Shown: piece by piece, positions 27,361 through 50,035 of the stretch | Numbering within the stretch: the first letter of the stretch is position 1 | How the letters are laid out: the number at the start of each line of letters is the position of its first letter | Source: Clostridiales bacterium | Lineage (GTDB): Bacteria > Bacillota > Desulfotomaculia > Desulfotomaculales > VENG01 | NCBI GenBank assembly: GCA_016278505.1 | Contig: JADQBQ010000021.1 | Location: forward strand, 124,001 to 188,000 | Direction: 5' to 3' | DNA length: 64,000 bases | The notes under the pieces: generated by a model | The model's input: only the letters and a program-made list of their open reading frames with translations | Databases searched by the model: none | What the model was told of the DNA's origin: nothing | Position numbers and translations under genes: made by a program

Positions 27361-27606
27361 CTACCTTAATTTACATAAATACCCGTTTGTTGATAGCTTG
27401 ATCCCACACGCTGTAACTGCCAACCCATTTTTACCTGTATCGAAATTTTTTATTACTTTAAAACCCTTACTCTCTAAGTATTTTCGTGCTTCGGTTCCGT
27501 CTAAGTCAGCGTGCAACTTATAGGCATCATCATAAATAAAGTTCCCCTCAGAAGCAATTTGCTGTAGTTCGGTTTTAGTTAATACCATTGGGTAACCATT
27601 TATCAT
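27361..27606 (-). CDS. Small hypothetical protein with a structured leader
   Basis: An 81-residue protein with no recognised family; it ends in GIKLSTNGYLCKLR. The start is taken at ATG 27606 rather than the longer frame to 27663. The bases between are a perfect hairpin that separates the AAAGGAGGG ribosome binding site from this ATG, the same layout as four other genes nearby. The longer frame would read through the ribosome binding site and hairpin. Confidence 0.6.
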   Translation of the reverse strand: MINGYPMVLTKTELQQIASEGNFIYDDAYKLHADLDGTEARKYLESKGFKVIKNFDTGKNGLAVTACGIKLSTNGYLCKLR

Positions 27607-27670
27607 CTTTATACCGGCCCACCGGCCGGTACTCCCTCCTTTCGAATTGGATTTACCGGCCATTAAGGCC
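27607..27670 (-). promoter_or_regulatory. SD-hairpin-start leader element, copy 1
   Basis: Order on the minus strand: arm A GGCCGGTA (27654-27661), SD AAAGGAGGG (27634-27642), then arm B TACCGGCC, loop GGTG and arm C GGCCGGTA (27612-27631), then TAAAG and the ATG. Arms B and C form a perfect eight-pair hairpin that shortens the SD-to-ATG distance from about 27 to about 7 bases. Arm A is identical to arm C, so A-B pairing would destroy the hairpin and place the SD in a loop. Confidence 0.7.
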
Positions 27671-27689
27671 TCGTTATTAGATCATATAG

Positions 27690-28052
27690 CTATTTCTCTT
27701 GAATTTTTTTCAGCTTGCTTTCACACAAAGGACACTTATCATTCGCCTCCGTCAAAGTGAATCTCTCATTACACTTTGGACATTCGTACTCACTGACTTG
27801 CTTTACACTGGTTTTCACCGTATTCCAGCATTCTAAAAGCGGACCCACAACATGCAAAATTTCCTTTTCAATTACTTGTTCATCACCGCAGCGCAAGGCA
27901 CCAATAAGATGCCCCATGTGCTCGGCACCGATTATTCCCCAATCCAACGGTTTACGCTGGTCGTCCGCATCTGAATCACCGTGTGCCTCCCGATTAAGTT
28001 TTTGCTGTGCCAAAACAGCTTGGACAAAGCTCTGAGCTTCTTGTAAAGTCAT
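27690..28052 (-). CDS. Hypothetical protein with a C-terminal zinc ribbon
   Basis: The 120-residue protein has a helical N-terminal two thirds. It ends in a CPKC-x(14)-CPLC zinc ribbon (about residues 92-113). GGAGG precedes ATG 28052 at normal distance. A broken relative of its tail lies at 27209-27327. Function unknown; such small ribbons in mobile elements often contact nucleic acid or protein partners. Confidence 0.65.
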   Translation of the reverse strand: MTLQEAQSFVQAVLAQQKLNREAHGDSDADDQRKPLDWGIIGAEHMGHLIGALRCGDEQVIEKEILHVVGPLLECWNTVKTSVKQVSEYECPKCNERFTLTEANDKCPLCESKLKKIQEK

Positions 28053-28121
28053 TTAAAGTAACCTCCAAATTTCTCCTTTTAACGGGGTAACCTGGGCTTT
28101 GCCAGGCCATCACTTTTCGAA

Positions 28122-28523
28122 TTATCTTATTTGCGCTATATCCGCCGGGTGTTCCCCGGTTTCCTCGCCCCATTGTGATCGAGACGCTAACTGCTGACCG
28201 CTTTGGTTATAATCCGTACCACAGCGACCGCAAGTGTTCGTAAATCCTTCAAGGTAAACTTCCTCCTCGCACACATTACAAGTACCGACCGCTGGTTCCA
28301 TATACCTGTGTTCACTCTTCCGAACCCCGGTAAACCGAACGTTATATTCCCCACATATGCAGGCGTTAAGGTTTTCCCGCGCCGCTTGATTCATTTTATT
28401 GAACGTAATGTTCCCGTCTTTATCGCAGTCGAAGCCAATTCCCGCACCTGGGCAGTCATTCCACTCAAATTCCAGGCTGTAGCTTATAACCGATACTCGC
28501 TCACTTTTTTTGATAATTTCCAT
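28122..28523 (-). CDS. Hypothetical protein with two cysteine pairs (zinc-ribbon-like)
   Basis: The 133-residue protein carries CICGEYN near residue 55 and CNVC-x(12)-CGRC (about 83-101), likely binding zinc. The C-terminus has SRSQWGEETGEHPADI, a tail I associate with hypothetical proteins of Gram-positive mobile elements. AAAGGAG precedes ATG 28523. No enzymatic motif is visible. Confidence 0.65.
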   Translation of the reverse strand: MEIIKKSERVSVISYSLEFEWNDCPGAGIGFDCDKDGNITFNKMNQAARENLNACICGEYNVRFTGVRKSEHRYMEPAVGTCNVCEEEVYLEGFTNTCGRCGTDYNQSGQQLASRSQWGEETGEHPADIAQIR

Positions 28524-28587
28524 TACACTATTCTCCTTTTCTTACTGCTCTCTCCAGCCACTTATTTCTACATGTATAACGGCTGCC

Positions 28588-29274
28588 TCAAATCAATCCT
28601 CTTTCTTTGAAACTCACAAACCTCTTATCGCCGATTACTATGTGGTCAATAATAAAAATCCCCATTACTTCACCAACCTCTACTATCCTTTCCGTAACTT
28701 TACAGTCTTCACTGCTTGGCTCCGGGTCCCCGCTGGGGTGATTATGCACCAGGATAATAGAGTCTGCGCTGCGGCGAATAGCCGGCTTAAATAGTTCCCT
28801 TGGATGGACCTGTGATGAATTCAGAGTCCCGATTGAGATTATCTCTCTGGCTATGACTTGTCTCTTTACATTTATGAGCAAGGCCACAAAATGCTCTCTA
28901 TCCAGGTGGCGCATTTCCTCCATCACTAGATTCGCAACATCTTCCGGAGACCTTACTTGCGGCATATCCTCGGGCATGATCCGTGTCACGCGCCTTGCCA
29001 GATCAAAAGCGGCACTTAGACGAACGGCTCTTTCCCTGCCAATACCCGGTAAGCTCATAAATTCTTCGGATGTCATATCAGCCATGGCCCGTAGCCCTTG
29101 CTTCATTAATGATTCCATGGTTTCATCTGGCACATCACCAAGGATAGAAGCAAGTACGCCTGGCAATTCTGAAGACTCAACTCCGTACTGCATTACCTCT
29201 TCTCTAGCTATCGAGGCCAGAGTTTTTTGTGGTTGCATGGCATACTGTTTTAAATAATTCTCGCTCCATAACAT
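28588..29274 (-). CDS. radC: RadC-like JAB/MPN domain protein
   Basis: The 228-residue protein has helix-hairpin-helix-type segments (FMSLPGIGRERAVRL) and a C-terminal JAMM motif, VHNHPSGDPEPSSED. RadC-like proteins are frequent in plasmids and integrative elements, where they are thought to act on DNA; the old radiation-repair role is not supported. The ATG at 29274 lacks an SD at normal distance. The only SD (AAAGGGGGG, 29308-29316) is separated from it by a ten-pair hairpin, so translation probably depends on that structure. Confidence 0.85.
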   Translation of the reverse strand: MLWSENYLKQYAMQPQKTLASIAREEVMQYGVESSELPGVLASILGDVPDETMESLMKQGLRAMADMTSEEFMSLPGIGRERAVRLSAAFDLARRVTRIMPEDMPQVRSPEDVANLVMEEMRHLDREHFVALLINVKRQVIAREIISIGTLNSSQVHPRELFKPAIRRSADSIILVHNHPSGDPEPSSEDCKVTERIVEVGEVMGIFIIDHIVIGDKRFVSFKERGLI

Positions 29275-29302
29275 ATTTACGGATACGGGCCCCAGCCCGC
29301 AT
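29204..29302 (-). CDS. Possible overlapping upstream ORF in the radC leader
   Basis: ATG 29302 lies five bases after the AAAGGGGGG SD, an ideal spacing. It opens a 32-codon frame (MRAGARIRKYVMEREL...) that ends at 29204 inside radC, in a different frame. Its ATG is inside arm B of the leader hairpin. When the hairpin is open the ribosome could use this ATG; when closed, the radC ATG. I find no protein family for it; it may be regulatory only. Confidence 0.3.
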   Translation of the reverse strand: MRAGARIRKYVMERELFKTVCHATTKNSGLDS

Positions 29303-29349
29303 CCAATCCCCCCTTTCGGATGATTGGTGTACGGGCTGAACGGCCCGGG
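29275..29349 (-). promoter_or_regulatory. SD-hairpin-start leader element, copy 2 (radC)
   Basis: Arm A is CAGCCCG plus CCAATC (29322-29338). The SD is AAAGGGGGG (29308-29316). Arm B GGATGCGGGC, loop TGGG and arm C GCCCGTATCC (29281-29304) form a ten-pair hairpin with one G-U pair, then GTAAAT and the ATG. Arm A pairs with GATTGG and CGGGCTG across arm B, enclosing the SD in the loop. An outer GGGCC/GGCCC adds to this alternative fold. Confidence 0.75.
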
Positions 29350-29353
29350 TTAG

Positions 29354-30178
29354 TTATGCAACTTTAATCTTTTCACTTAGTTTCTCTACCCGCCGGATTA
29401 GTTCTCCGGCAGCTTTTTGGATGTCGCTCCCCAACTTGATAACTTTCTCAATATCTCCCTTGGCCCAACCGGTAACGTATCCAAAGCTGGAAGGAGAAGT
29501 ATCTACATCAAAGTATTGGGCTACTACGCATGTCGCGCCTTCGGCAATAATTTCAGCCCGTTCGCGATCTACCTGGTCTTTCGGAGGATCTTTTTCTACT
29601 ATTGAGTGGACAACTTCGTGAAGCAGTGTTGCCGTCAGCTCGTCTCCGGACCAGTTATCACTCAGCACTATCTCCTTATCTATCGTATGATAGTAACCCT
29701 TGGCGCTGCCGGTCTCTCCGAATCTGACCGGCACTGGTGCTGCCTCCATTAACTCGTTATATAACTGACGTCCATTTTGGGTATCTCCTTCCAGATCCGG
29801 GGCTAATTCCGGTAACGGTTCACCTTCCGTTTGATTAATGTCAAAAACTGTTACGGCACGAAAGCCTTTTAATACCCACTTTTCATCTCCGGTATCTTCG
29901 TTTTCTACTTTCCTTGCCAGCGGGGCAAATATCCTAATGCCTTTTTCGCCTTTTTTCACTTTACGTCCCATGCTGTTCCAGGTCTTTAGCCCGGCTACCC
30001 TGGTAGCTTCAGGCTTTTGCATAAAGATCAACATTGTGTTGCTAAAAGAGTACCGGTGGAACCGGGTTTGGAACTTTAGGAACTCATGAAATTTTCCGCT
30101 GGAAATTATCTCGGATACCCCTGCTTTCAAGTTCTCGTATAACTCCTTAACTTTTTCCCTACCTTTACCCTGTGCCAT
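29354..30178 (-). CDS. ardC: ArdC-like antirestriction protein with zincin motif
   Basis: The 274-residue protein has an N-terminal ArdC domain (YSFSNTMLIFMQKP, WNSMGRKVKKGEKGIRIFAP). A metallopeptidase-like C-terminal domain carries LLHEVVHS, an HExxH zinc motif near residue 188. ArdC proteins bind DNA and protect incoming plasmid DNA from host restriction. This one fits an early-expressed establishment gene next to radC. Its ATG is preceded by the third copy of the leader element. No membrane segment is present. Confidence 0.85.
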   Translation of the reverse strand: MAQGKGREKVKELYENLKAGVSEIISSGKFHEFLKFQTRFHRYSFSNTMLIFMQKPEATRVAGLKTWNSMGRKVKKGEKGIRIFAPLARKVENEDTGDEKWVLKGFRAVTVFDINQTEGEPLPELAPDLEGDTQNGRQLYNELMEAAPVPVRFGETGSAKGYYHTIDKEIVLSDNWSGDELTATLLHEVVHSIVEKDPPKDQVDRERAEIIAEGATCVVAQYFDVDTSPSSFGYVTGWAKGDIEKVIKLGSDIQKAAGELIRRVEKLSEKIKVA

Positions 30179-30253
30179 TTGTGCGGCGCACCGGCCCTAA
30201 CGGGCCTGGTGCGCCAATCCCTCCTTTCGAGTTGATTGGTATGCAGCAGGCCC
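30179..30253 (-). promoter_or_regulatory. SD-hairpin-start leader element, copy 3 (ardC)
   Basis: Arm A has GGGCCTG and CCAATC (30234-30253). The SD is AAAGGAGGG (30219-30227). Arms B and C (30185-30215) form a 13-14 pair hairpin with a GTTA loop and one mismatch, followed by GCACAA and the ATG. The linear SD-to-ATG distance is about 40 bases; with the hairpin folded it is about nine. Arm A pairs with GATTGG and CAGGCCC of arm B as the alternative state. Confidence 0.78.
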
Positions 30254-30293
30254 TTGTATAGGCCGGTGTTCCTAATGGTTTACTACAGAGGCG

Positions 30294-30551
30294 TTATTTC
30301 CAATAGTCCGGGTAATTTCTCAGTCTACGCACGATCCAGAACCAACTAGTACATTCATATCTTTTTTGAAGTTCCGTATCGATGGCAAACCAGTAGTCTC
30401 TGAACCCTTTTTCTTTGGCCCATTGAGCCATAGAAAGCAGTATTTCTTCTTCGGATTTGTCCTTTTCTTCAAAGTCCTTGACTAAATTCTCTGCAAATTC
30501 TCTTACTAAAATACACTTTTTCTCAATTGTTAATTTATCTCTTTTGCTCAT
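30294..30551 (-). CDS. Small hypothetical protein with a structured leader
   Basis: An 85-residue, highly charged protein rich in Lys/Glu and aromatic residues (FRDYWFAIDTELQKRY), without known family. ATG 30551 is chosen because the SD-hairpin layout ends there. A TTG at 30590 would start before the hairpin and add 13 residues encoded by hairpin bases. Role unknown. Confidence 0.6.
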   Translation of the reverse strand: MSKRDKLTIEKKCILVREFAENLVKDFEEKDKSEEEILLSMAQWAKEKGFRDYWFAIDTELQKRYECTSWFWIVRRLRNYPDYWK

Positions 30552-30630
30552 AATCTTTGGATACCGCAGTCTGTTCGACCCGGTACCCAATCCCTCCTTT
30601 TGATTGATTGGCTAACGGGCCCAGGCCCGG
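30552..30630 (-). promoter_or_regulatory. SD-hairpin-start leader element, copy 4
   Basis: Arm A has CCCG and CCAATC (30602-30622). The SD is AAAGGAGGG (30592-30600). Arm B GGTACCG and arm C CGGTATCC (within 30559-30587) pair with one bulged base around a longer loop, followed by AAAGATT and the ATG. Arm A pairs with GATTGG and CGGG of arm B. The loop is larger than in the other copies. Confidence 0.65.
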
Positions 30631-30666
30631 TTAATTATTAAGCTTTATCGCAGTTTTCTATCCACA

Positions 30667-30834
30667 TCATACATGGTTTTCAAAATCAACATTCATTTCA
30701 TCAGATGCCCATTCCGCCTGGTATTCATGATCGAATACTTCACCGGGAACATAACAGTGAAGATAGCAATCATACACTTTCCATTTGCAGTCGGTATCGT
30801 CCCAATCTGCATAATAGCGAGTTAACCTGGCCAT
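30667..30834 (-). CDS. Small hypothetical protein (55 residues)
   Basis: ATG 30834 follows directly on the TAG of the upstream gene, behind GAGGAGG, and opens a 55-codon frame. The product is acidic and aromatic with four tyrosines, three tryptophans and cysteines (YYADWDDTD, CKWKVYDCYLHCY). The immediate stop/start junction and strong SD argue for a real coupled gene. No family is recognised. Confidence 0.6.
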   Translation of the reverse strand: MARLTRYYADWDDTDCKWKVYDCYLHCYVPGEVFDHEYQAEWASDEMNVDFENHV

Positions 30835-31446
30835 CTATTTTGCCTCCTCGGCCATCATTTCTTGCAATAATTCGCACTCGACCTGGTACTGTTTCCAATC
30901 TGCCTCGAACCCTTCTTTGGCTTGGTCCATCGCGTAATTCTTGGAGCAACAAAGTAAGTTGTGGCAAGCCATTTCATAATACTTTCGAAGCAATGCTCGT
31001 TTCTGGTCTTCCTTGTTTTGATAATTTGCACTAATAACGGTCAAACTCTCCGGAGCGTTGAAGAAGCTGCTGTACAACCTTCTCAAGTCCTCTTTTACAG
31101 CTACTTTTTCATCCTCCAAAGCCCATAATATCTTCCCTCGGAGATGTTCATAGGCCTCTACTAGCTCTCTCCTGGTTACCCCATCCTTTTCACACTCTTC
31201 CTGGCATTCCGCGAGATACTCATCTAACGTCGTATCCAGGCTTATAATATGCTTCCATTTCTCATTCACCCGTTTTGGTGCTTCGCTCTCAATCATTTCT
31301 TTAACTTGATCGTGAAACAAATTAAAGAAATACCAATCCATCTGCCGCCTGAGGCAGTCTCCGTGGTTTTTCTCCCATTTTTGGTGTGCCTCCAGCATAA
31401 TTTCCCAGGCCCACTTCTCAAGCTCATTTTCAAGGATAACTTTCAT
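30835..31446 (-). CDS. Hypothetical protein of the mobile element
   Basis: A 203-residue, mostly helical, acidic protein, starting at ATG 31446 behind AAAGGAG. It contains no membrane segment or known catalytic motif. It is followed without gap by the 55-residue gene and preceded by the DUF5348-like gene, forming a small operon. Confidence 0.6.
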   Translation of the reverse strand: MKVILENELEKWAWEIMLEAHQKWEKNHGDCLRRQMDWYFFNLFHDQVKEMIESEAPKRVNEKWKHIISLDTTLDEYLAECQEECEKDGVTRRELVEAYEHLRGKILWALEDEKVAVKEDLRRLYSSFFNAPESLTVISANYQNKEDQKRALLRKYYEMACHNLLCCSKNYAMDQAKEGFEADWKQYQVECELLQEMMAEEAK

Positions 31447-31460
31447 GTATTCTTCTCCTT

Positions 31461-31922
31461 TCACTTCCTGGTGGCGGCTGTCATTCCAGGATGTAACCCA
31501 TGATGTTCCCATCCCGATTCATTGTAGAAATAATAACCACCATATTCATCAGAATGTTCCACCCGGCCAAACTGCCATCCGTAATCCTCATGACCCTGAT
31601 CCGGTATAAATAAATCAATTGCACAGCCGCAGGTCAGTTCGAAAGCATTATTACCGGAAACTAACGCATAACGGCCGTTGGGCTGCTTTTGCAACTTGCC
31701 CTCCGACCGGGGCTTTAAGAGGTATTCAACTCTTTTGTGCAAGCCATTAACGTCATCGGATCCTTCGCATAACCTCATGAGCTCCACTAGTTCTGCCTTT
31801 TCGATTCCCTCTAGCTCATCACAGTAAGTGTAGAGCCCTGAGATTTGGTCCATTTGAACCATGGTTTGGCCTAAAATATCTCTTAAACGCTTAATCTCCT
31901 GGGTTACTACTCTGTTTTCCAT
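31461..31922 (-). CDS. DUF5348-like protein
   Basis: The 153-residue protein has a coiled N-terminal half (residues 1-70). A C-terminal domain (LQKQPNGRYALVSGNN, GWQFGRVEHSDEYGGYYFYN) resembles the DUF5348 group found in Clostridia. ATG 31922 with AAAGGTGAT is preferred to the GTG at 31934. Function unknown. Confidence 0.6.
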   Translation of the reverse strand: MENRVVTQEIKRLRDILGQTMVQMDQISGLYTYCDELEGIEKAELVELMRLCEGSDDVNGLHKRVEYLLKPRSEGKLQKQPNGRYALVSGNNAFELTCGCAIDLFIPDQGHEDYGWQFGRVEHSDEYGGYYFYNESGWEHHGLHPGMTAATRK

Positions 31923-31963
31923 TGTTTTTATCACCTTTCTTTGACTATTGATTTACTCAGCAT

Positions 31964-32527
31964 TTAAATTAATCTCTCATAGCTGTTTAAAGCCATCATC
32001 TGAATTTGAGTGTTTTTGTTCAGTAAACATTCGATCAGATATTCGTAGTAGTCAGCTTTAATCGCCAACTCTGCGAAGTCGCAGTGTGCTTGATAACCGC
32101 CGGCTGCGAGTGTATTGTTGATCGTTCGCACAAGCAGTGACATTGTTTCATGTGCTTTTTCTAATTTCTCTCGCTTCTTTGCCTCCTGTGCTGCTTGCTG
32201 TATAATCTTGTGGCGAACTGCTGGCGAAAGCAGCTTATCCACTTCAATGCCAAAATCCCGGGCAATCATCCGTGCCGCTTCGATAAGTTTAATGTTGAGT
32301 ACTTTTGCTATTAAGTCGGTCACATCGCCATGCTCACCGCAGCCGAAGCATTTCCATTTTCCATCTGGGAAAATAACAAAGGACGGTGAGTGATCATCAT
32401 GGTGCGGTAGTGGGCACCGAGCCACCCAACGCCGGCCACGCTGCTTTAGTTCGGCTATTTTGTAGTGATTAATAACATCCACTATATTTAACTGTTTAAC
32501 TAATCCAAAGATATTTACAGCGTGCAT
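31964..32527 (-). CDS. CHC2 zinc-finger (primase N-terminal-like) protein
   Basis: Residues about 35-95 match the DnaG-type CHC2 zinc finger: CPLPHHDDHSPSF followed by KWKCFGCGEHGDVTDLI. The remaining C-terminal part is helical, and there is no Toprim catalytic domain. It is therefore not a full primase. It could recognise the element's origin or act with a separate helicase or primase. GAGGTGATG precedes ATG 32527. Such stand-alone CHC2 proteins are common in conjugative elements. Confidence 0.78.
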   Translation of the reverse strand: MHAVNIFGLVKQLNIVDVINHYKIAELKQRGRRWVARCPLPHHDDHSPSFVIFPDGKWKCFGCGEHGDVTDLIAKVLNIKLIEAARMIARDFGIEVDKLLSPAVRHKIIQQAAQEAKKREKLEKAHETMSLLVRTINNTLAAGGYQAHCDFAELAIKADYYEYLIECLLNKNTQIQMMALNSYERLI

Positions 32528-32563
32528 ATCATCACCTCACCGTTTATATTTATTTTCCCTTGC

Positions 32564-32616
32564 AAAAAAACACAAAGGAGAACGCCCCAGGGATATTCCC
32601 TGAAATACGTTCTCCT
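32564..32616 (-). terminator. Intrinsic terminator after the 32657-33148 gene
   Basis: GGAGAACG pairs with CGTTCTCC, with an inner AGGGA/TCCCT stem, and the minus strand continues with TTTGTGTTTTTTT. It closes the transcript that begins upstream of the 33.15 kb leader element. Confidence 0.82.
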
Positions 32617-32656
32617 AAATTCCTGGCCAAACTAATTGTGTCTGGCACTGTTACTC

Positions 32657-33148
32657 TCAGGATTCTGCCTTTACGAATACCGCAAACGCGGTACCGTTAT
32701 CCATAAGGCGGTATTTTACTTTTACCTGCTTTCCCATTGACTCTAATAATGCCTTTCCGGCTCCGTTCTTGGCAAAGACGGCTCCTTTTTTATCTTTTTC
32801 TACATCCTGACACCATGCTCTTACGGTACCAGGTGTTTTCGTTTCCTTAGCTTCTATCACTTTAAAATCTGCTTCAACCAGATCACCGGGTTTATTACCG
32901 TTTTCTTTATGTCCGGTCTGTGTTGATTCTTCGGAGTTTTCCTTTTCATTACTTTCGTTGCTCATACTTTCAGGTCTGCCAGATGCAGAGATGCGACCAC
33001 ATTCGTTACCTGTCCAGGCAGCACAACGTTCTTCCAGGCATTCAAGAAATTCCTCTTCCCACTCTTCAAGAGTGTTAGTTTTACCATCAGTATTTGCAGT
33101 AACAATCTTAGCAAATTTTTTCTTTCTAAAAGGACATAACTTAGCCAT
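32657..33148 (-). CDS. Hypothetical protein with a structured leader
   Basis: A 163-residue protein. The first 50 residues resemble a short Cys-containing domain (MAKLCPFRKKK, CLEERCAAW) seen in mobile-element proteins. A Ser/Glu/Asn-rich linker covers about 50-90. The C-terminal domain has VRAWCQDVEKDKKGAVFAKN. The ATG at 33148 is fixed by the leader element and the family-like N-terminus; a frame to 33214 would read through the hairpin. Confidence 0.65.
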   Translation of the reverse strand: MAKLCPFRKKKFAKIVTANTDGKTNTLEEWEEEFLECLEERCAAWTGNECGRISASGRPESMSNESNEKENSEESTQTGHKENGNKPGDLVEADFKVIEAKETKTPGTVRAWCQDVEKDKKGAVFAKNGAGKALLESMGKQVKVKYRLMDNGTAFAVFVKAES

Positions 33149-33220
33149 TTCTCGGACACGGGCCCTTGCCCGTATCCATTCACCTCCTTGAAAAAGTGTT
33201 TGGATTACGGGCATTAGCCC
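33149..33220 (-). promoter_or_regulatory. SD-hairpin-start leader element, copy 5
   Basis: Arm A TGCCCGTAATCC (33202-33213). SD AAGGAGGTG (33181-33189). Arm B GGATACGGGC, loop AAGG and arm C GCCCGTGTCC (33154-33177) form a ten-pair hairpin with one G-U pair, then GAGAA and the ATG. The hairpin is nearly the same sequence as the radC copy. Arm A is complementary to arm B apart from one bulge. Confidence 0.78.
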
Positions 33221-33244
33221 TAATTATCTTTATGGCGTAATTTA

Positions 33245-34263: not shown

Positions 34264-34536
34264 TTATTTGTAAGCATCTTTCCGTTGTGTGATATCCACT
34301 ACGTGTATTTCTCTGTTGGCTTTATCAAACAGAAAAAATACACGCCAGTCACCCACACGAAGTCTGTACCTTCCCCTCATGTCTTTCAGCTTTTTAATAT
34401 CCCCACGCGGCGGCATTACCGTTATCCCGTACAATGCTTTTTTAATTCTCTTCTGGATATCGGTATCAAGCCTTTTTAACTTTTTCACAGCCCTTGGGGA
34501 TAATAAAAGCTTATATCCCGAGTTCTTTCCAGACAT
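34264..34536 (-). CDS. RelE/ParE-family toxin
   Basis: The 90-residue basic protein has the RelE fold signature: LLLSPRAVKKLKRLDTDIQKR, KLKDMRGRYRLRVGDWRVFF and a terminal IHVVDITQRKDAY. RelE members cleave mRNA on the ribosome. It overlaps the upstream antitoxin gene by 26 bases, the usual pair arrangement. It probably stabilises the element in the host population. Confidence 0.9.
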   Translation of the reverse strand: MSGKNSGYKLLLSPRAVKKLKRLDTDIQKRIKKALYGITVMPPRGDIKKLKDMRGRYRLRVGDWRVFFLFDKANREIHVVDITQRKDAYK

Positions 34537-34777
34537 CTTCGGCCTTTACACCCTTACCAGCTTTTATTTCAGCTTCCCCTTGAATGATGCCCTCTTTTTC
34601 TTCCGCTGTAATTTCCGCTGTCTCACATGACATCTCAAAATTAATCAAATCAATCAACTCTTTCAGATTTTCGTTATCATCGTTTTTGGCCAACAGCTCC
34701 AGTATACCAACGGCAATTTTAAGCTTTTCCGCTGGAAGGGCTTCAACTATTTCAATAGCTTTTTGGGTAGCATCCAT
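34511..34777 (-). CDS. Antitoxin partner of the RelE-like toxin
   Basis: An 88-residue acidic protein directly upstream of the toxin, starting at ATG 34777 with GAGGTG upstream. It is helical and ends in GKGVKAEDVWKELG, a type of tail found in RelB-like antitoxins that wraps the toxin. A longer frame begins in overlap with the ssb stop (TAATG, 34837). The DNA-binding domain type is not clear. Confidence 0.75.
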   Translation of the reverse strand: MDATQKAIEIVEALPAEKLKIAVGILELLAKNDDNENLKELIDLINFEMSCETAEITAEEKEGIIQGEAEIKAGKGVKAEDVWKELGI

Positions 34778-34836
34778 GGCCATCACCTCAAGGCCATTAT
34801 ATACCCTGTCAGCCCCTCTTGTCAGCATACTTGACA

Positions 34837-35169
34837 TTATGCGATCTCCTTGGCCTTATCAAGGAATTTTATCTTTTCGGCTACAACTTCAGCGGCTTTG
34901 CGCCTGATGCCCTGGCTGTCGTCGTATGAACGGATTTGCAACCGTCCCTTAACGGACACCAGCCGGCCCTTGCCTAGATGCTTGACACAGTTTTCCGCAA
35001 GCTTTTCCCAGGTAAGGATATCAATGAAATCGGCTTCGCGCTCCCCGTCGGCGTTTGCGTAATCTCGTTCCACCGCCAGGGTCATTTTTGCCACAGTTTT
35101 TCCGCCCGGGGTTTTATTTTCCTCCGGATCCCTTACCAACCTTCCAATCAGCCATACTTCATTCATCAT
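34837..35169 (-). CDS. ssb: Single-stranded DNA-binding protein
   Basis: The 110-residue protein has the SSB OB-fold (MNEVWLIGRLVRDPE, FIDILTWEKLAENC, LVSVKGRLQIRSY). It lacks the long acidic tail of chromosomal SSB, so it is a compact mobile-element version. ATG 35169 lies behind AAAGGAG; a second ATG follows at 35166. It would coat the element's single-stranded DNA in transfer or replication. Two tandem terminators lie just upstream. Confidence 0.93.
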   Translation of the reverse strand: MMNEVWLIGRLVRDPEENKTPGGKTVAKMTLAVERDYANADGEREADFIDILTWEKLAENCVKHLGKGRLVSVKGRLQIRSYDDSQGIRRKAAEVVAEKIKFLDKAKEIA

Positions 35170-35193
35170 TTTTGGGATACTCCTTTCTTTTTT

Positions 35194-35240
35194 GAAAATA
35201 AAAAGCACTCTCTGTTCCGTTACACGAGACGATAGAGTGT
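35194..35240 (-). terminator. Second tandem terminator or attenuator before ssb
   Basis: CACTCT (minus strand, 35234-35239) pairs with AGAGTG (35206-35211), and TTTTTATTTT follows. It stands between the structured RNA's own terminator and the ssb ribosome binding site, so it may attenuate readthrough into ssb. Confidence 0.6.
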
Positions 35241-35811: not shown

Positions 35812-36531
35812 TCAATACCTAATATCTAAAAAACTTTTTTGGGCTATGTCGTAAAACGTGTTTTCCCTTTTGCTTAATACCCGGGCCACATCCTTAAGTA
35901 GCAGGTCATTGATCCTAAGATTCTCCAAAACATCCAGGTTAACAATAAAAATGGTGTTGTCATATTTGTTCAGCTGTGACCATCTTACCTCTTCCAGGTG
36001 GATCAGTCCGTAGCTTTTACCCTTTTTATCCGTTACCTGATTATTACTTCTAAAGGTATATAGGTCACAATTATCGATCAAAAACCTTGATTTTACATAT
36101 TGCTTGTACTTCTGATCCAGTCCGGCGGTGAAAGGAATATGGTTATATTCTGATTTCATGTCCATGTCGTCAAGGACGTATAACCCTCCTGTATCTACCA
36201 TATACCAAAAATATTCAACATCATCAAGTTTGATGTGGTTTTCGAAGATCAACCCCGTGAGTATACATTCCTCAATTCTTTTTTTGCATTCCTTGAATTT
36301 ATAGCCCAAAAAAGGCTTGATTGAATCAAAGTCTAAAATAGTAAACTTGTTAATTAACTTAAGTATTGATATATGATTCTCATCTAGTAGCAGGCTTCGG
36401 AAAAAGCCTGCTACATCGTCTTTTGATATGTTTCTTGCTACTAATGGTTTTATCTGAGAATTATACCTTCGTCCTTGCTTCATTGTGATGGATTCAAGGA
36501 AGTAATGAGTTTCGTAATTGCACAAAAGCAT
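35812..36531 (-). CDS. Hypothetical protein
   Basis: A 239-residue soluble protein, AT-rich and lysine-rich, with no motif I recognise. Its ATG overlaps the stop of the S1-domain gene by one base (TAATG, 36531), so coupled translation is likely. ATG 36483 (MKQGRRYN) is an alternative. Being in the VirD4/S1 cluster it may serve transfer or element control, without direct evidence. Confidence 0.6.
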   Translation of the reverse strand: MLLCNYETHYFLESITMKQGRRYNSQIKPLVARNISKDDVAGFFRSLLLDENHISILKLINKFTILDFDSIKPFLGYKFKECKKRIEECILTGLIFENHIKLDDVEYFWYMVDTGGLYVLDDMDMKSEYNHIPFTAGLDQKYKQYVKSRFLIDNCDLYTFRSNNQVTDKKGKSYGLIHLEEVRWSQLNKYDNTIFIVNLDVLENLRINDLLLKDVARVLSKRENTFYDIAQKSFLDIRY

Positions 36532-37391
36532 TACTTATCAGCCCTTTTTGACCGGTTTCGCCCGTGTTTTTTCCAATATTCCCGGTTCTTTTTGCGCCCG
36601 CGAATGATTTCGGGATCAAAATATCCAAGGCTAAGCGATTTTTTGTCAGGATCGTATTCGTTTACTTTGAACTTAAATCGTTCACCTATTTCCGGGGTTT
36701 TGCCGTTGGCAGGGTAAGGTGCAATACCTACAAGTCCGGCTCTTATGGCCACAAAGATGTTTTTTTCACCGAGGTGAACCACTTCGCCTGAAACTATGTC
36801 GCCACGGGAATAACGAACTTCTTGCCACGGATCTACCGGTAAGACTGATATTATACCATTGTCTCTGTCAATTTTTTCGATAATTACTTTTACTCTTTGA
36901 CCCTCATGGTAAATAGCGTTCAATGGAATTGATCTGGATGTGCCGGCTCTCTTCCGGTCCAGGTCTACTATCACTCCTCCGCCAATATCTAGTCCAACCC
37001 ATATATCGGTCACAAAGCTGACACAGGCCTCTATTTGCTGTCCTTCTTCCACCATTCTTATGATCCTTTCCCGGGCTTGTTCCACCGGCTCTCGGCGCGT
37101 ACAAGCAACCAGGTTGTTTTTCTTGTCAATTCCTTTAATTATTACCTTTACCTCTTGACCGACGAAGTAATTCATCATTTTTTCATTGGGCAGACCAGTT
37201 TCACTAAAGGGAACCACCCCACGCACATCATATGCTCCGTCAAATTCCAGTTCCCAGGCCAAGCCCTGAAGTGTTTCTTGTTGAACCACGGCAACGACCA
37301 TGGCATATATTTCACTGTTACGGTCCTTGGCATCATAAAGCTTGTCCCAAAATTCCATACCAGATAAATTCTTTTCTGGTGCTAATAACAT
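36531..37391 (-). CDS. Protein with three S1-like OB domains
   Basis: The 286-residue protein contains three OB/S1-type repeats at about residues 20-105, 110-185 and 195-265. The first has GVVPFSETG-, VGQEVKVIIKGID; the second GQRVKVIIEKIDRDNG; the third GDIVSGEVVHLGEKNIFV and AGLVGIAP. S1 domains bind RNA or single-stranded nucleic acid. It sits directly downstream of the VirD4 gene, as S1 proteins do in several Gram-positive conjugative elements. GGGAGG precedes ATG 37391. Confidence 0.8.
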   Translation of the reverse strand: MLLAPEKNLSGMEFWDKLYDAKDRNSEIYAMVVAVVQQETLQGLAWELEFDGAYDVRGVVPFSETGLPNEKMMNYFVGQEVKVIIKGIDKKNNLVACTRREPVEQARERIIRMVEEGQQIEACVSFVTDIWVGLDIGGGVIVDLDRKRAGTSRSIPLNAIYHEGQRVKVIIEKIDRDNGIISVLPVDPWQEVRYSRGDIVSGEVVHLGEKNIFVAIRAGLVGIAPYPANGKTPEIGERFKFKVNEYDPDKKSLSLGYFDPEIIRGRKKNREYWKKHGRNRSKRADK

Positions 37392-37416: not shown

Positions 37417-38690
37417 CTAGTTTGCTGACCAGGTTCTAACCTTTCTATCTTTCACTTTACTAATTGGCTGTGGCAGCTCCTCTCCCGTTACTATTGCCTG
37501 ATCATCAATTTCCGGTAGAAAAACATCAAATCCCCTGGCTGGTATCACCTCCTCCACCGGCAGCATGCCGCATTCCTTTATTTCTTTTGCCTGGGGCAAT
37601 TCAACCCAGCCGACTTTTCGAAGGTATAATGGGTATGACCACTGTAGAAGTGCAATGCTGTACCTGGGATCTAGACGTAATATTTCGTCTATGGTCATAA
37701 GCGGTCTTTCAATCACTGTCCGTTCCTTTTTCTTGAATTCAAAAAGGTGTCTGCCCGGAACGGTTAGATCCTCACTGACTTTTTCTATTTCTACCGGGGC
37801 GCTGCCCAGCAAACCGCTGAACATACGGGCTAACTCCCGGTCAGCCGGGGCAACACCGATTAACATTGCCGTGGGACAATTCCCCAGTATTATTTTTGCG
37901 TCATCTTGCCCGTAAACAGATTCCAGCTGGGTGGGTGTCTGCAGGATCATTTGAATGTGTATCCCTTTGCTCCGGGCCGTGGATATAATCTCCGGTAGTC
38001 CCGGTATCATACCTACGTTGGCCATCTCATCCCAAATGTTTCTGACACCGACGGGTAGTTTTTGCCCGGGGCTCCTGAAAGCTAGTTTATCTAAACGTCT
38101 GAATATGAACTTATAGAGTATGGACAAGATGGGTTTTAAATAAATTCCCTCACCACCGGTGGGAATGATAAGAAACAATGCTGTTTTTTTCTGGCCCAGC
38201 TGGTTCAGATCAATTTCCTGCTCAGACATCATTGCTGCAAGAGGAGCTGTGGTCAGGTTTTTTAGCACTGCCGTCAGGTTGGAAACTGCGTATTCATAGT
38301 TTTTCTTCACTACCCCCCTCCAGCGTTCATAAATCATTGGGCTTATTTTCCCGGCTTTAAAAGCTTCTCTAAAACGTTCATCAAGTTTTTCTTCCGGCCA
38401 TGAGGCAAGGGTCATTAGAGAACGCATATGTTGCTGCTCTACTGGAAAGTCGCCCTTTAAGAGCCCTATAAATGCCTCCATTAACTCCATGGCCTTAAGT
38501 GCAAAATAAGAATCGCTGCCGCCGGAAGCATTTTTTGAAAGTGTGTCTATCATCTCTGAGATTTCAGCATCACTTAAACATTCAATCACCGGATCCCAGC
38601 GGTGACTGTGTTCCGGTTGCATAAAATTTAGTACCCACACGTTTTCATATCCCTTTTCTTTAAGCCATTTGCCTACAGTGGCAAACAGCT
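37417..38690 (-). CDS. virD4: VirD4/TraG-type coupling ATPase, 3' exon
   Basis: This exon encodes the C-terminal 424 residues of a type IV coupling-protein-like ATPase. It has the second half of the ATPase (NIWDEMANVGMIPGLPEIISTARSKG and ILQTPTQLESVYG). The codon split at the intron joins to the 5' exon as GGT G|AG, producing DPKGELFATVGKW. A GTG at 38640 can start a 407-residue fragment alone, but the family sequence continues upstream to 38690. Coupling proteins deliver the relaxase-DNA complex to a transfer channel. No relaxase is visible in the window. Confidence 0.88.
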
Positions 38691-41370
38691 ATGACGATAG
38701 GTAAGGTTTTGATGTTATCTACACCTTTTCCCCCGCCTCACACCGTACGAGCTGGTTTCCCAGCATACGGCGTTCCATCGTTTCCAGCTAATTTATATAA
38801 GTTACATTACTATCGGTTCGTTACCGACTTTTGACCTTAGATGATTTAATTTAGCGAGTTGCTTTTTATTTAACGAGAGTGTTCGAATGGCACTTATGAT
38901 CTTCTGCGGATTCGTCATGTGAATTAGTTTGTGTATGGACCAATCAACAATGACGAGATTGCTGTAGTTGTCTGTTCCTGCGAGATATAAAGGAGTAACA
39001 TGGTGACAGTGAACACGATCTATCCCAATTACCTCACCTGTGACAAAACATTTTCCATATTGGGCGACATATTTGGAGATGCGATTGTCATTATACTCAA
39101 TACTCCTTGTTTTAGAGTAAGTGCTCATGACTTGTGAGAGAACATCCCTTGATATCGCTTTAAGATTTGTATGGATTTTACTTCTTCCGGCTTCTGTGTA
39201 ATTACAGGTTTCTTGGGAGAAATTCCAAGGATTTTTATGATGAATACCTGTAACCGGAAGTATGGGTGTGTTTTGAATAGTAATGATTTTCGTGTCAGGT
39301 CTGATCCCTTTTGCTCTCTTTTTAAAAGCTGAAGGTGTTTCGCTAAAAGACACAATCTTTAGGTGATTTTGAAGTCGGTTTTTCATGGTTTTAAGTAGAG
39401 AGTAGCTAACCTCCGTTAAATCCATGTAGATGGTGGTTGCGTATTTAAAGTAGTTTTGTATTCCTATAAGGGTAGAGTTGAATCGCAAGACACTATCCGG
39501 CTCGGGATTCTTTTGTATTTCTTTTACCGTTTCCTTTAGAGTACGCTTTGTTCTTTTGATTGCCTTATCGGTCATGCTTGTTTTTGCGACATATCCATAT
39601 CTGGATTTGCCTTGCTTGACAATTCTGACCTTAAAACCAAGGAAAGTTGAGGAGTTTTTCTTGAGATTTACTACTTTAGACTTATCCGCATTAACTTCTA
39701 ATCCTAAGCGTTTGTTAAGAAAATCGATAGTAGCGTGATAAAAACGTTGAGCTTCTTCATACGTTCTACACATGATTTTAAAGTCATCAGCGTACCGGAC
39801 GATGTACCCGTCTTTTAGATTGGTGTATTTTCGAGCGTAGCTCAAGAACCCTTTATGTTTAGTAGAAACCTTTTGTGGTTTATAGGTTTCCCATTGATTG
39901 CTGACCCACCAATCTAATTCGTTCAAAACGATATTAGAGAGTAGAGGAGAAATGATTCCGCCTTGCGGCGTACCTTTCGATGGGATTCCTTCACCTTTGA
40001 TTTCTGATTTAAGGATTTTCGAGATTACACATAGTAGGGATTTATCCCTGATTCCCATTGTCCATATTTGTTTGAGTAGTTTGCCATGGTTTACATTATC
40101 GAAGAATCCCTTGATGTCGATATCCACGCAATAATGGTGTCTGCCGATGTTTATAAGGCTTATCATCCTACTTAATGCGTGATGAGTGCTTCTGTTAGTT
40201 CTAAAACCATAGCTATGCTTATGAAATTTTGCTTCGCAAATAGGGTCAAGGATTTGTAAAGTGGATTGTTGTACAAGGCGATCCCAAATAGTTGGAATCC
40301 CAAGCGGTCTCATCTTATCGCTGCCTTCCTTGGGAATATACACTCTTAAGACAGGTTGCGGTCGATACTTGTTAAGCCTTTTTCTGACTTCTTTGACTAT
40401 CGCTGTGTCATTTAAGTGCCAAATATCTTTAATAGTCAATCCATCAACACCAGGCGTTTTGCTACCCTTATTAGTTTTAATATTTCTGTAGGCTAACCGT
40501 ATGTTTTCTTCAGAACCGATGAGTTCCATTAACTTATAGAAGTTGTTACCGTTAAGACTTCTGGAATATAAGGTGTCATATATTTTTTGCATATCGTAAT
40601 ATTCGCTATGTCTTAACTTGGTTTTCTTGAGCATGGGCTGTAACCTCCTGTCGGAGGGTTACATCTCTTATTCTTACTCGAAACCATGCAAACCGTTAGT
40701 AACTTTTTAGCCTTCAATCGACTAGTGGCTATCCCTCCACGTTCATTACACGCTTCATTGGTACTGTGCCACCACTTTCACTGTCATAAATTTAGGTTAT
40801 ACACTCAGCTAATCTCACTGATGTTTTCCCTAAAACCACTTTAACAGGAGCGACCCCTTAGTGTTGACAGTTTTACCACGTTCCGTCATTCCTATCTATA
40901 CATACACTTTTAGGTTTCCCCTATGAGCCTGCTACCTTGATATTGCCTGTAACAATATACGGACTTTCATAAAGGAGAGTTTTACTCATCCGCAGTAGCG
41001 ACACTATTTGTGTCAGTAAGCCTTTCGACTTACTCCCGATATAGACCCGTACTATCAGGGATTCGTCTGCACTTCCAGAGCTCGAACCGGTTCATTGTGC
41101 ATCCTAACCATGAGTGTTTTGTAGACTCCCGGCTTATAGGTTACGCCATCCACCTCTGGACAGTTTTCATATCTTTTCGATTTACGGTAACTCTCAGCCG
41201 TCTTCACCGAGCTTCGTACAGTTTGATTGTCGCTAATCTTGCTGCACGTCGGAGTATTAGAGGAAGCCCTTCAAGGCGTTACCCTATCATTTGACTTCTT
41301 GGAATGACAGTTCACTGTTGAGCTATAAGCTTGACAGTGCCTAACCTTTTCAGTTAGGAACGTGTCGCGC
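38691..41370 (-). mobile_element. Group II intron inserted in the virD4 gene
   Basis: The intron is 2680 bases. The 5' end reads GCGCGACACG, a variant of the GUGYG consensus. The 3' end is ...CGTCAT, ending in the usual AY. Domain V is the 34-base hairpin at 38739-38772 (CGCCGTATGC, GAAA-type loop, GTACGG), with a CGC rather than AGC catalytic triad position. Domain IV carries the reverse transcriptase gene. The flanking exons total 2121 bases, an exact multiple of three, and splice into a single frame. The intron lies just after the DPKG motif. Confidence 0.88.
38802..40634 (-). CDS. ltrA: Group II intron reverse transcriptase/maturase with HNH endonuclease
   Basis: The 610-residue protein has RT motifs through GTPQGGIISPLLSN and catalytic YADD (VRYADDFKI). 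A maturase/thumb region follows, and an HNH nuclease domain ends the protein (CFVTGEVIG, VHCHHVTPLYLAGTDNYSNL). It assists intron splicing and retrohoming into DNA. It appears full length with no frameshift, so the intron may be active. It is encoded on the same strand as the host gene. Confidence 0.95.
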   Translation of the reverse strand: MLKKTKLRHSEYYDMQKIYDTLYSRSLNGNNFYKLMELIGSEENIRLAYRNIKTNKGSKTPGVDGLTIKDIWHLNDTAIVKEVRKRLNKYRPQPVLRVYIPKEGSDKMRPLGIPTIWDRLVQQSTLQILDPICEAKFHKHSYGFRTNRSTHHALSRMISLINIGRHHYCVDIDIKGFFDNVNHGKLLKQIWTMGIRDKSLLCVISKILKSEIKGEGIPSKGTPQGGIISPLLSNIVLNELDWWVSNQWETYKPQKVSTKHKGFLSYARKYTNLKDGYIVRYADDFKIMCRTYEEAQRFYHATIDFLNKRLGLEVNADKSKVVNLKKNSSTFLGFKVRIVKQGKSRYGYVAKTSMTDKAIKRTKRTLKETVKEIQKNPEPDSVLRFNSTLIGIQNYFKYATTIYMDLTEVSYSLLKTMKNRLQNHLKIVSFSETPSAFKKRAKGIRPDTKIITIQNTPILPVTGIHHKNPWNFSQETCNYTEAGRSKIHTNLKAISRDVLSQVMSTYSKTRSIEYNDNRISKYVAQYGKCFVTGEVIGIDRVHCHHVTPLYLAGTDNYSNLVIVDWSIHKLIHMTNPQKIISAIRTLSLNKKQLAKLNHLRSKVGNEPIVM

Positions 41371-42217
41371 CACCTTTGGGGTCAATGACGATAATACTTT
41401 GGCCTTCTGCGACCGCCGCTATGATATTGCCGATGACAATGCTGAAAGATTTGCCGCTGCCGGTGCCGCCGTAAAAGATGGCGTGGGGTGCAGTTTTGGG
41501 TGTGTCTTCCGGCATTTTATCGAAATTCACCCTGACGATTTTACCCTCCAGTTCGCCGATAACATTGCCGCCCGGAAACCTCACCCGCATGTTTTCATTT
41601 TTTTCAGGCAGTACCGGTGGGCCTAATTCGCAGTAGCTTTTAACGTCTTTGAGACCGGCCCAGCGGGATGTACCGTATGCCGGATTGTCTATTATTTTTA
41701 AGCCGTGGACTCGATTAAAGGCGTTTGCCTTGTTTTGCCGCTTTTTTAACTGCCACCAAGTATAAGCGCCGGCTGCACCGGCACCGAAAAATGCATTAAG
41801 CCACAGCCATGTATGTTTTACTTCAGGGTAGGACAGTGATTCCGATGGTTTTGTTAACCATGCCCAGCCGTTACTTATTGGGTGTTTGAAGTAGTAAGGC
41901 ATTAGTTTGGCATATGTTTCAGGTGTTGCTGCTGCAGTTGCCTTTTTCTCGTCCGGCGAATCAAACATTGGTATGTCATTCCAGCCTGAGGTAACGTCAT
42001 TAAAACCTGAGATTAAGCTGCGAACTCCGTTGATGGTGTCATGGATACCGGCTGCCAAGCTGCCCAGGGCCCAGACATCGGCAAAATAAAAAAGCGGCAC
42101 GGCAATAGGGGTAATTCCCAGCGCCAGCGCAGCTTTTTTATGCTCTTTGACCCAATTTTTAATTTGCAGGTCATTAATTCCAACCAATTTAACTTTATCC
42201 TTCCGCAGCGGTAACAC
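41371..42217 (-). CDS. virD4: VirD4/TraG-type coupling ATPase, 5' exon
   Basis: Encodes 282 residues: two N-terminal membrane segments (about 30-60 and 128-150), then the Walker A motif GGTGSGKSFS (about 252) and IIVIDPKG at the exon end. Without splicing, translation would stop nine codons into the intron (41354). GTG 42217 lies too close to its SD (GGAG); TTG 42187 after GAAGG is an alternative start. It overlaps the upstream 130-residue gene by 23 bases. Confidence 0.88.
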
Positions 42218-48016: not shown

Positions 48017-48441
48017 GTCACATTATTTTTTAAAAGTGGTGAGACTTGTAAAACACAACAGCGCGTTAAGCTTAGACTTGTTTTACATGATAATCGTCAC
48101 ACAGAATAATTGGGGCGTTTTAAAAAAGGTGTGACGATTTATTTTTAAAATGGTACTTAGGTCTTACAGTACCAGTGGTTTCGTGGTCACACCAAAAAAA
48201 ATTAATATGGTGTGACCAACTCAAGCTTTGTCACACTTGACTTTTAGCCATTTTTCCACTATTCCGTCACACCTGTTATTCTTTTTTCGTGTGACCGTGT
48301 AAGCCCAACTGTCACAAGGGTTAATCACTTATTTTAGAGTTAATTGTCACACCCTATAAATTATTTGCCATGAGCCGGTGTGACGATTTACGTTAATACC
48401 ACTTCTTAGGCCTTGCGCCATCATCGTTTTCTCGGTCACAC
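48017..48441. repeat. GTGTGAC/GTCACAC repeat array (candidate centromere or operator)
   Basis: Ten perfect heptamers start at 48096, 48129, 48186, 48210, 48230, 48266, 48289, 48346, 48378 and 48435, with two shorter matches at 48017 and 48311, in both orientations. Spacings (33, 57, 24, 20, 36, 23, 22, 35, 32 and 57) are near multiples of about 11, placing sites on one DNA face. Two copies are followed by GATTTA. The array fills the gap between the HTH gene and the ParR-like gene, without any coding signal. Confidence 0.85.
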
Positions 48442-48723
48442 CATCTTAAACATAAACATATAAGATGAATAACATTGAATAGGGCATAATTCATTTAACT
48501 TTTCTTGGTAAACCCATAACTTTTTCTCTGGTATAGGTTTTTGTCCTAATTCGCATCGAGTAATATCTGTTTGACTGACACCAGTACTCTTAACAAATTC
48601 TCTAGCTGTTAAGTTCAGGGCATACCTAACAATCCTGATTATATTACCAGGGCGGAAGCGATAAATCTGAAAATTTGAGAAAAAACGCTCTAAAACCTGA
48701 TTATTTATATATTTAATCTTCAA
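48436..48723 (-). CDS. XRE-like helix-turn-helix protein
   Basis: The 95-residue protein contains a Cro/CI-type HTH (LTAREFVKSTGVSQTDITRCE, about residues 38-58; shown region shortened by family match). Its stop codon overlaps the last GTGTGAC repeat. It may bind that array and autoregulate. It is AT-rich with a cysteine-containing tail. Partners are the ParM-like gene upstream and ParR-like gene downstream. Confidence 0.7.
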   Translation of the reverse strand: MKIKYINNQVLERFFSNFQIYRFRPGNIIRIVRYALNLTAREFVKSTGVSQTDITRCELGQKPIPEKKLWVYQEKLNELCPIQCYSSYMFMFKMV

Positions 48724-50003: not shown

Positions 50004-50035
50004 AACATCTTCCACCTTTCGTGATTTTTATTTAC

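Follow-up and report, generated by a model that had tools for sequence, protein, structure and literature searches.

Five leaders on the minus strand of the window (the 64,000-nt stretch of DNA analysed here) belong to one family of RNA leaders, which probably represents a cis-acting element controlling translation initiation of a gene set on an ICE family, and operating as a bistable switch of the distance between the SD and the start codon. All five lie where the first-pass annotation had placed them, with E-values of 1e-10 to 1e-23 under the refined covariance model R2 [Table 1]. The annotation had counted them as five independent copies; this part of its description does not stand, as the copies are homologous and share descent within one family. 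Its proposal of a multi-gene set under the leader is borne out, and the set includes ardC and radC; some of the genes, though not necessarily all, would serve establishment in a new host. A repeated regulon of split ribosome-binding sites with a built-in competing fold appears to be new; no earlier description was found.

Architecture of the leaders

The leader is ~80 nt long, spans the SD and has the order A′-A-S1-SD-S2-B-C-start, where S1 and S2 are the arms of a hairpin, S. These arms (CCAATC...GATTGG) flank the SD and pair around an extended SD (GAAAGGAGG); in the leader of the gene at 27606, the inner S stem is degenerate (TCC..GGA). A′ pairs with A to form hairpin h1, and B with C to form hairpin h2, which lies between the SD and the start codon. 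Since B is used by both A.B and B.C, the two pairings are mutually exclusive. Hairpins h1 and S are two conserved parts that the first-pass annotation had not described.

The distance from the SD end to the start codon is 28 nt (27606), 34 nt (radC), 41 nt (ardC), 41 nt (30551) and 34 nt (33148), in agreement with the earlier statement that the SD is too distant in every case and that a hairpin fills the gap. In the window leaders, about 2 to 5 nt remain between the SD and h2 and about 4 to 7 nt between h2 and the start, and most of the h2 sequence is common to the radC and 33148 leaders. Throughout the family (~100 leaders), the SD-to-start spacing is 31 to 41 nt in essentially all leaders, and the effective spacing once h2 has formed is mostly 7 to 11 nt. 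Where an SD can be recognised in front of other genes of the same element, its spacing is mostly ordinary, as judged by eye. A model-free geometry rule (an SD 26 nt or more from the start, none nearby, and a hairpin of at least 8 bp between) holds for 65/75 leader-associated starts vs 61/5077 other candidate starts at the same loci, and several of those 61 are alternative starts of leader genes. Judged by sequence, the leader is thus a split ribosome-binding site, in that a distant strong SD without a nearer one is combined with a conserved hairpin predicted to restore the distance.

Table 1 Leaders, the genes that they are proposed to control and the linked S1 paralogue in the window
Feature	Coordinates	Strand	Evidence and remarks
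Leader of gene at 27606	27604..27677	-	R2 40.1 bits, E 1e-10; parts h1, S/SD hairpin, h2, start codon
radC leader	29272..29352	-	R2 80.3 bits, E 1.3e-23; starts 2 nt past the ardC stop
ardC leader	30176..30259	-	R2 39.8 bits, E 1.3e-10; longest h2 among the window leaders
Leader of gene at 30551	30549..30634	-	R2 50.4 bits, E 5e-14
Leader of gene at 33148	33146..33226	-	R2 63.8 bits, E 2.6e-18
81-aa gene, putatively leader-controlled	27361..27606	-	Without Pfam or NCBIfam match
radC, putatively leader-controlled	28588..29274	-	PF04002, E 2e-46
ardC-like antirestriction gene, putatively leader-controlled	29354..30178	-	PF08401 ArdcN, E 3e-12
85-aa gene, putatively leader-controlled	30294..30551	-	Homologues in L067 and L071 carry the same leader
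163-aa gene, putatively leader-controlled	32657..33148	-	Cys-rich N-terminus (MAKLCPFRKKK...); in the largest cluster of leader-controlled homologues (n=24)
Ribosomal protein S1 paralogue, candidate trans-acting partner	36531..37391	-	NCBIfam 30S ribosomal protein S1, E 3e-17; no leader of its own

Covariation and folding of the competing helices

In an alignment of 97 distinct leaders, which was fitted to the modelled structure, pairing reaches 98.7% for h2, 90% for S and 82% for h1; the covariation score is 0.450, vs 0.172 after shuffling and 0.03 to 0.06 when slid. For A.B the corresponding figures are 78.8% paired and a score of 0.211, vs 0.110 shuffled and at most 0.083 slid. A swap test, in which the pairing of a leader's own arms is compared with that of swapped arms in 29 non-redundant leaders, favours the own arms for B.C (z -11.6), S1.S2 (z -8.0) and A.B (z -4.7, p 5e-5), and A′.C gives p 0.005. 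The controls A.C, A′.B and S1.B are not significant in these 29 leaders, and h1 fails the swap test although it passed the alignment test. Taken as sequence evidence, the covariation is overwhelming for h2, strong for S and significant but weaker for A.B, part of which could stem from h1 having arisen as a degenerate h2 copy (both are GGCC-rich). These data point to two mutually exclusive helices, both selected, with the weaker support falling on A.B.

An upstream arm complementary to the 5′ arm of the hairpin, as first described, is present in all five window leaders, and it covaries with B. The orthologous leaders of the 30551 leader (L067 7403 and L071 5774) have compensatory changes. Such changes in homologues, whose absence had been named beforehand as refuting, were looked for and found. 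Selection on the hairpin, also claimed earlier, is upheld by the h2 covariation; moreover, h2 contains 70 G.U pairs vs 3 A.C mispairs, which indicates that the sense (mRNA) strand is under selection.

Nearest-neighbour estimates for naked RNA place both folds near -43 to -46 kcal/mol, with a difference (h2-forced minus A.B-forced) of +3.7 kcal/mol (sd 3.6), and by these models the two are near-degenerate in energy. In the window, the ensembles forced to A.B and to h2, respectively, have -43.2/-39.3 (27606), -51.1/-44.2 (radC), -55.4/-53.2 (ardC), -36.5/-38.0 (30551) and -43.3/-40.7 kcal/mol (33148). The MFE structure of the full leader contains A.B in 65/99 cases, and that of the leader without its upstream arm contains h2 in 97/99. 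S is formed, and the 3′ half of the SD paired, in both folds. The switch would therefore alter the SD-AUG distance and not free the SD, such that any difference between OFF and ON rests on distance alone.

Spread of the leader and its linkage to an S1 paralogue

A covariance model built from nine copies, R1, has matches in 31/200 related genomes. The refined model, R2, has matches in 43/113 of the order's genomes and in 23 more in a phylum sample (28/398 of that sample); there are up to 17 leaders per genome, usually clustered. As a negative control, though a weak one, R2 finds nothing in ten genomes from unrelated groups. Scanning all genomes with an exact pattern gives 30 matches, most by chance and real only in Desulfoscipio and Desulfotruncus, hence the need for a covariance model; a pattern scan of IMG/VR gives one real match (L004) and one chance match (L005). 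At the leaders of the window and eight loci, no Rfam family reaches its gathering threshold, and with E up to 10 only chance-level matches appear. The ORF start coincides with the leader's start codon for nearly all matches, across unrelated gene families; R2 contains the start codon, so that ATG conservation in the matches is partly built in.

Upstream of the leaders and, by coordinates, on the same strand, lies a gene adjoining traG that encodes a protein of ~286 aa. Its best match in the PDB is bS1, and all its scores are far below the equivalog cut-offs, identifying it as a paralogue and not bS1 itself. It matches the S1 model at positions 114-330 only, corresponding to ~220 residues of S1 repeats; with the alignment beginning at about position 114, the domain-1 region seems to be missing. 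The protein has no match in plasmid and phage collections. Among the order's genomes, 31 have both leaders and paralogue, 5 leaders only, 4 the paralogue only and 73 neither (Fisher p 2.7e-18). The paralogue gene lies within 30 kb of 33/52 leader clusters, mostly 2 to 9 kb off, and of 12 paralogue loci that seemed leaderless, four have leader matches on closer search. The linkage recurs outside the order in G470, G451, G318, G208 (twice), G342, G281, G478, G210 and G375. In G013 and at one G025 locus, the paralogue is present and no leaders were detected, while leaders occur with no strong homologue of the paralogue in G241 and some other clusters.

Proposed switch, alternatives and known systems

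In the proposed switch, formation of B.C would bring the SD, otherwise 31 to 41 nt away, to an effective 7 to 11 nt from the start, and the gene would be translated (ON). Capture of B by A would block h2, leaving the distance too long and yielding little translation (OFF). By prediction, A.B is the usual resting state of the full leader, and occupying or removing the upstream arm would favour h2. We infer that the two folds interconvert, as well as the direction and the signal of this change and its link to the S1 paralogue. Candidate triggers are a ribosome that completes the upstream gene, cleavage of the RNA, or a protein that unfolds it, for which the element's own S1 paralogue would be the best candidate.

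A relay by translational coupling, in which ribosomes terminating at the end of the upstream gene would occlude both A′ and A, freeing B for h2 so that the next gene starts and each gene depends on its neighbour, is a possible though tentative reading and is compatible with the switch as its trigger. The leaders are intercistronic, the upstream stop is often 0 to 40 nt before the leader, and loss of the upstream arm yields h2 in nearly all predicted structures; the stop-to-leader distances, however, are broad (overlap to >300 nt; 2 to about 200 nt in the window) and unphased. A similar, tentative probability attaches to operation by an RNA-binding protein of the element targeting the twin hairpins or else the SD hairpin, most likely the S1 paralogue as a private unfolding or initiation factor, which again could be the trigger. 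The co-occurrence, proximity and recurrence of leaders and paralogue, including the loci recovered on closer search, argue for it, as does the ability of E. coli S1 to unfold mRNAs with structure so that initiation can occur (PMC3858243). Against it, the gene beside traG may be plain ICE backbone, such that the linkage is confounded by the element, some loci have one partner without the other, and E. coli S1 lacking domains 1-2 bound neither 30S nor mRNA (PMC3858243), while the paralogue seems to be without domain 1. Somewhat more speculative is a private translation circuit, in which the cut-down S1 opens the bistable split sites or refolds them to h2, and the genes are translated only with the element's factor present or freshly made.

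A constitutive structured spacer is rather unlikely. Here, h2 would only set the SD distance (and might protect the mRNA or raise initiation), A being the leftover of a duplicated hairpin and no switch existing. That h2 is conserved far better than A.B, that h1 and h2 resemble direct duplicates of a single hairpin, and that structure as an enhancer has precedent in T4 genes 38 and 25 (PMC3014915) all fit this idea; but A fits its own B better than that of other leaders, which the controls A.C and A′.B do not, and the prevalence of A.B among the MFE structures would defeat a purely enhancing h2. A role as a single-stranded-DNA hairpin, e.g., a Frpo-like promoter acting on entry of the transferred strand, is very improbable. 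The hairpins are stable, and leading regions typically carry ardC, radC and ssb-like genes, yet the SD and start geometry is conserved, a consensus scan of the minus-strand leaders gives no promoter-like site, and the hairpins lie around and after the SD, where a promoter would exclude the SD from the transcript. Least credible of all is that the leaders are REP-like or otherwise repetitive DNA without a regulatory role, a reading for which the several copies per element might speak; it is contradicted by the covariation, with its compensatory changes, and by the fixed start-codon distance. No minus-strand terminator-like site (a GC hairpin followed by a T run) is present at any leader. A leader peptide starting from a TTG or ATG just after the SD was discarded, as its frame and presence are not conserved across leaders (by eye), and the upstream in-frame starts 27663, 33214 and 30590 were set aside, their frames being open in some copies only.

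If the bistable switch operates as proposed, mobile elements would coordinate genes through the SD-to-AUG distance. The family offers ~100 natural variants with which the reach of an SD acting through structure can be probed, and the linked S1 paralogue makes testable S1-like initiation help from a mobile element to hosts with a short or translation-non-essential S1. The linked protein resembles bS1 over its S1 repeats and differs in its reduced length and its place on the element.

Split ribosome-binding sites were previously known from a few phage genes; here many mobile elements carry them as a repeated regulon. In T4 genes 38 and 25, a hairpin between SD and AUG likewise shortens the distance, from 22 to 5 and from 27 to 11 nt, and efficient initiation depends on it (PMC3014915). 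These are single genes for which the relevant parts of that source mention neither a competing upstream arm nor a hairpin flanking the SD nor a repeated regulon, in contrast to ~100 leaders with 31 to 41 nt spacing here. Compared by description only, EGeRS1 of pLS20 resembles the leaders in being a repeated and structured sequence that immediately precedes the RBS of establishment operons, that of ardC among them, and is reported to block expression from upstream promoters (PMC8708921). However, it occupies 420-750 bp upstream of the RBS, unlike the ~80-nt leaders that span the SD, and no split RBS is reported for it (PMC8708921). As in bistable riboregulators (riboswitches and leaders of the T4 gene e type), alternative or occluding helices would decide whether the start site is usable. 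Unlike these, the leaders are without an evident ligand pocket, their alternative helix would change the spacing and not only hide the SD, and they precede unrelated genes of one mobile element family.

Architecture of the leader and conservation of its pairings

Inspection of the window sequence bears out the first-pass annotation of five leaders, which lie on the minus strand at the positions given. Each has a strong Shine-Dalgarno sequence (SD) far from the start codon (28-41 nt in all five), a hairpin occupying the gap and a competing upstream arm complementary to the 5′ half of that hairpin (both present in five of five). The leader runs from arms A′ and A (helix h1) through S1, the SD and S2 (hairpin S around the SD) to B and C (helix h2), followed by approximately 4-7 nt and the start codon; A may pair instead with B. 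Most other genes of the same element with a recognisable SD show ordinary spacing. Across family matches, the distance from SD end to start is 31-41 nt (one exception, 27), h2 is mostly 9-12 bp long and, with h2 discounted, the spacing is mostly 7-11 nt. The SD is usually extended: 82 of 99 leaders have at least 8 nt complementary to the textbook 16S tail, most commonly GAAAGGAGG. A model-free geometry rule holds for 65/75 leader starts versus 61/5077 other starts. The split ribosome-binding-site part of the leader is well supported.

Pairing in h2 reaches 98.7% among 97 distinct leaders, and every h2 pair shows changes on both sides; the figures for S and h1 are 90% and 82%. The covariation score is 0.450 (0.172 shuffled, 0.03-0.06 slid), a value favoured by the fitting of the alignment to the model structure; for this reason alignment-independent tests were added. 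When duplexes were exchanged among 29 leaders less than 72% alike, the own duplex was stronger for B·C (z −11.6), S1·S2 (z −8.0) and A·B (z −4.7), and not stronger for A·C, A′·B or S1·B. Within elements the A·B advantage is smaller yet present (p 0.01), and on the alignment A·B is 78.8% paired (score 0.211 versus 0.110 shuffled). In h2, 70 G·U pairs stand against three A·C mispairs, so that the folding being conserved is that of the sense strand (mRNA).

Distribution of the family and the genes it precedes

The leader family is real, selected and widespread. A pattern search (CCAATC..AAAGGAGGGATTGG) revealed an additional radC leader elsewhere in the source genome. When the scan was widened, copies also turned up in Desulfoscipio geothermicus and two Desulfotruncus species. 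The first covariance model, built from nine copies, matched in 31 of 200 relatives and gave 106 matches on leader-cluster loci, three being opposite-strand echoes of palindromic copies. Among 113 genomes of the order, the refined model matched 43 (with up to 17 copies); in a phylum sample of 398 it matched 28, five of which belong to the order itself, and in ten genomes from unrelated groups it matched none. Some weak matches close to the threshold may be false. At the leaders, no Rfam family matched. The family is apparently undescribed: the searches made of the open-access literature, where absence is weak evidence, yielded no paper on it. The IMG/VR contig IMGVR_UViG_2599185230_000001 (108,394 bp) shares its length and its leader with the bacterial contig NZ_FOOX01000020.1 of Desulfotruncus arcticus, with which it appears identical; its viral label is thus doubtful, or the element is integrated.

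The start codon that the leader predicts coincides with the beginning of the ORF in nearly all cases, and the genes concerned are unrelated. The encoded proteins fall into a cluster with small Cys-rich members (24), ArdC-type (17), RadC (14) and YTRKQA proteins (6; DUF6573-like), the remainder forming many small groups and singletons. The largest cluster includes a family with the motif CPFRGF.ECL...C.AW....C; its window member has no match in Pfam or NCBIfam.

The host element and its ribosomal protein S1 paralogue

The window holds an integrative and conjugative element (ICE), whose components include ArdC and RadC.

Features of the element in the window
Feature	Position	Remark
Leader-preceded gene	start 27606	
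radC	start 29274	leader-preceded
ardC	start 30178	leader-preceded
Leader-preceded gene	start 30551	
Cys-rich protein gene	32657-33148	leader-preceded
Two small ORFs	34264-34837	resemble ParE/RelE-type toxin and antitoxin partner (by eye); just upstream of the leader cluster, adjoining the ssb-like gene
ssb-like gene	34837-35208	
S1 paralogue	36531-37391	about three S1 repeats
Stretch with group II intron	37417-42217	the intron appears to split the traG coupling-protein gene
Intron Rfam matches	38691-38775; 41118-41315	
Intron reverse transcriptase	38802-40634	
Topoisomerase	42593-44986	ICE component
Two 67-nt direct repeats	48128-48194; 48377-48443	70% identical, 249 bp apart; inverted-repeat ends GGTGTGAC...GTCACACC
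Actin-like protein	48990-50015	ICE component
Integrase	54049-55014	ICE component

The paralogue of ribosomal protein S1 (unrelated to arm S1) is a candidate partner of the leaders, on grounds of linkage, not function. Within the order, leaders and paralogue occur together in 31 genomes, singly in 5 and 4 and neither in 73 (p 3e-18). Of 52 leader clusters, 33 have the paralogue on their own contig no more than 30 kb away; it mostly lies upstream in the same orientation, at 2-9 kb. A closer search gave leader matches at 4 of 12 paralogue loci that had seemed leaderless, and similar linkage was seen beyond the order as well. Of the clusters lacking a local paralogue, some (G099:C5, G000:C29 and G011:C5) come from genomes with a copy elsewhere. 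The paralogue adjoins traG and may be ICE backbone. In the genome G028, a related traG is present, with neither leaders nor paralogue found. A second element in the source genome (G000:C22) carries a relative of traG together with an S1-like ORF that contains a stop codon; no leaders were detectable in it. To unfold structured mRNAs on the 30S subunit, Escherichia coli S1 requires domains 1-3, and domain 1 varies greatly among Firmicutes S1 proteins (PMC3858243). The window paralogue seems to be without the domain-1 region.

The proposed switch and comparison with known systems

Through B, the h2 and A·B folds are mutually exclusive. Forced ensembles lie near −43 (h2) and −46 kcal/mol (A·B), differing by 3.7 (sd 3.6), and fall within 5 kcal/mol in 62% of leaders. 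Minimum free energy folds of 99 full leaders contain A·B in 65 and h2 in 15; with the upstream arm removed, h2 appears in 97. In both predicted folds the SD has its 5′ half open and its 3′ half paired in S, so that the SD-to-AUG distance is likely what would differ between them. Covariation and computed energetics support a putative switch. Upstream translation and the S1 paralogue are the leading candidate triggers; the leaders mostly occupy gaps directly 3′ of an upstream stop codon, a position from which they could be coupled to upstream translation.

Shortening of an over-long SD spacing by a hairpin is established for T4 genes 38 and 25 (PMC3014915). The EGeRS1 regions of pLS20 are an instance from another system of structured repeats preceding establishment operons, that of ardC among them, but they span 420-750 bp and are placed upstream of the ribosome-binding site (PMC8708921).
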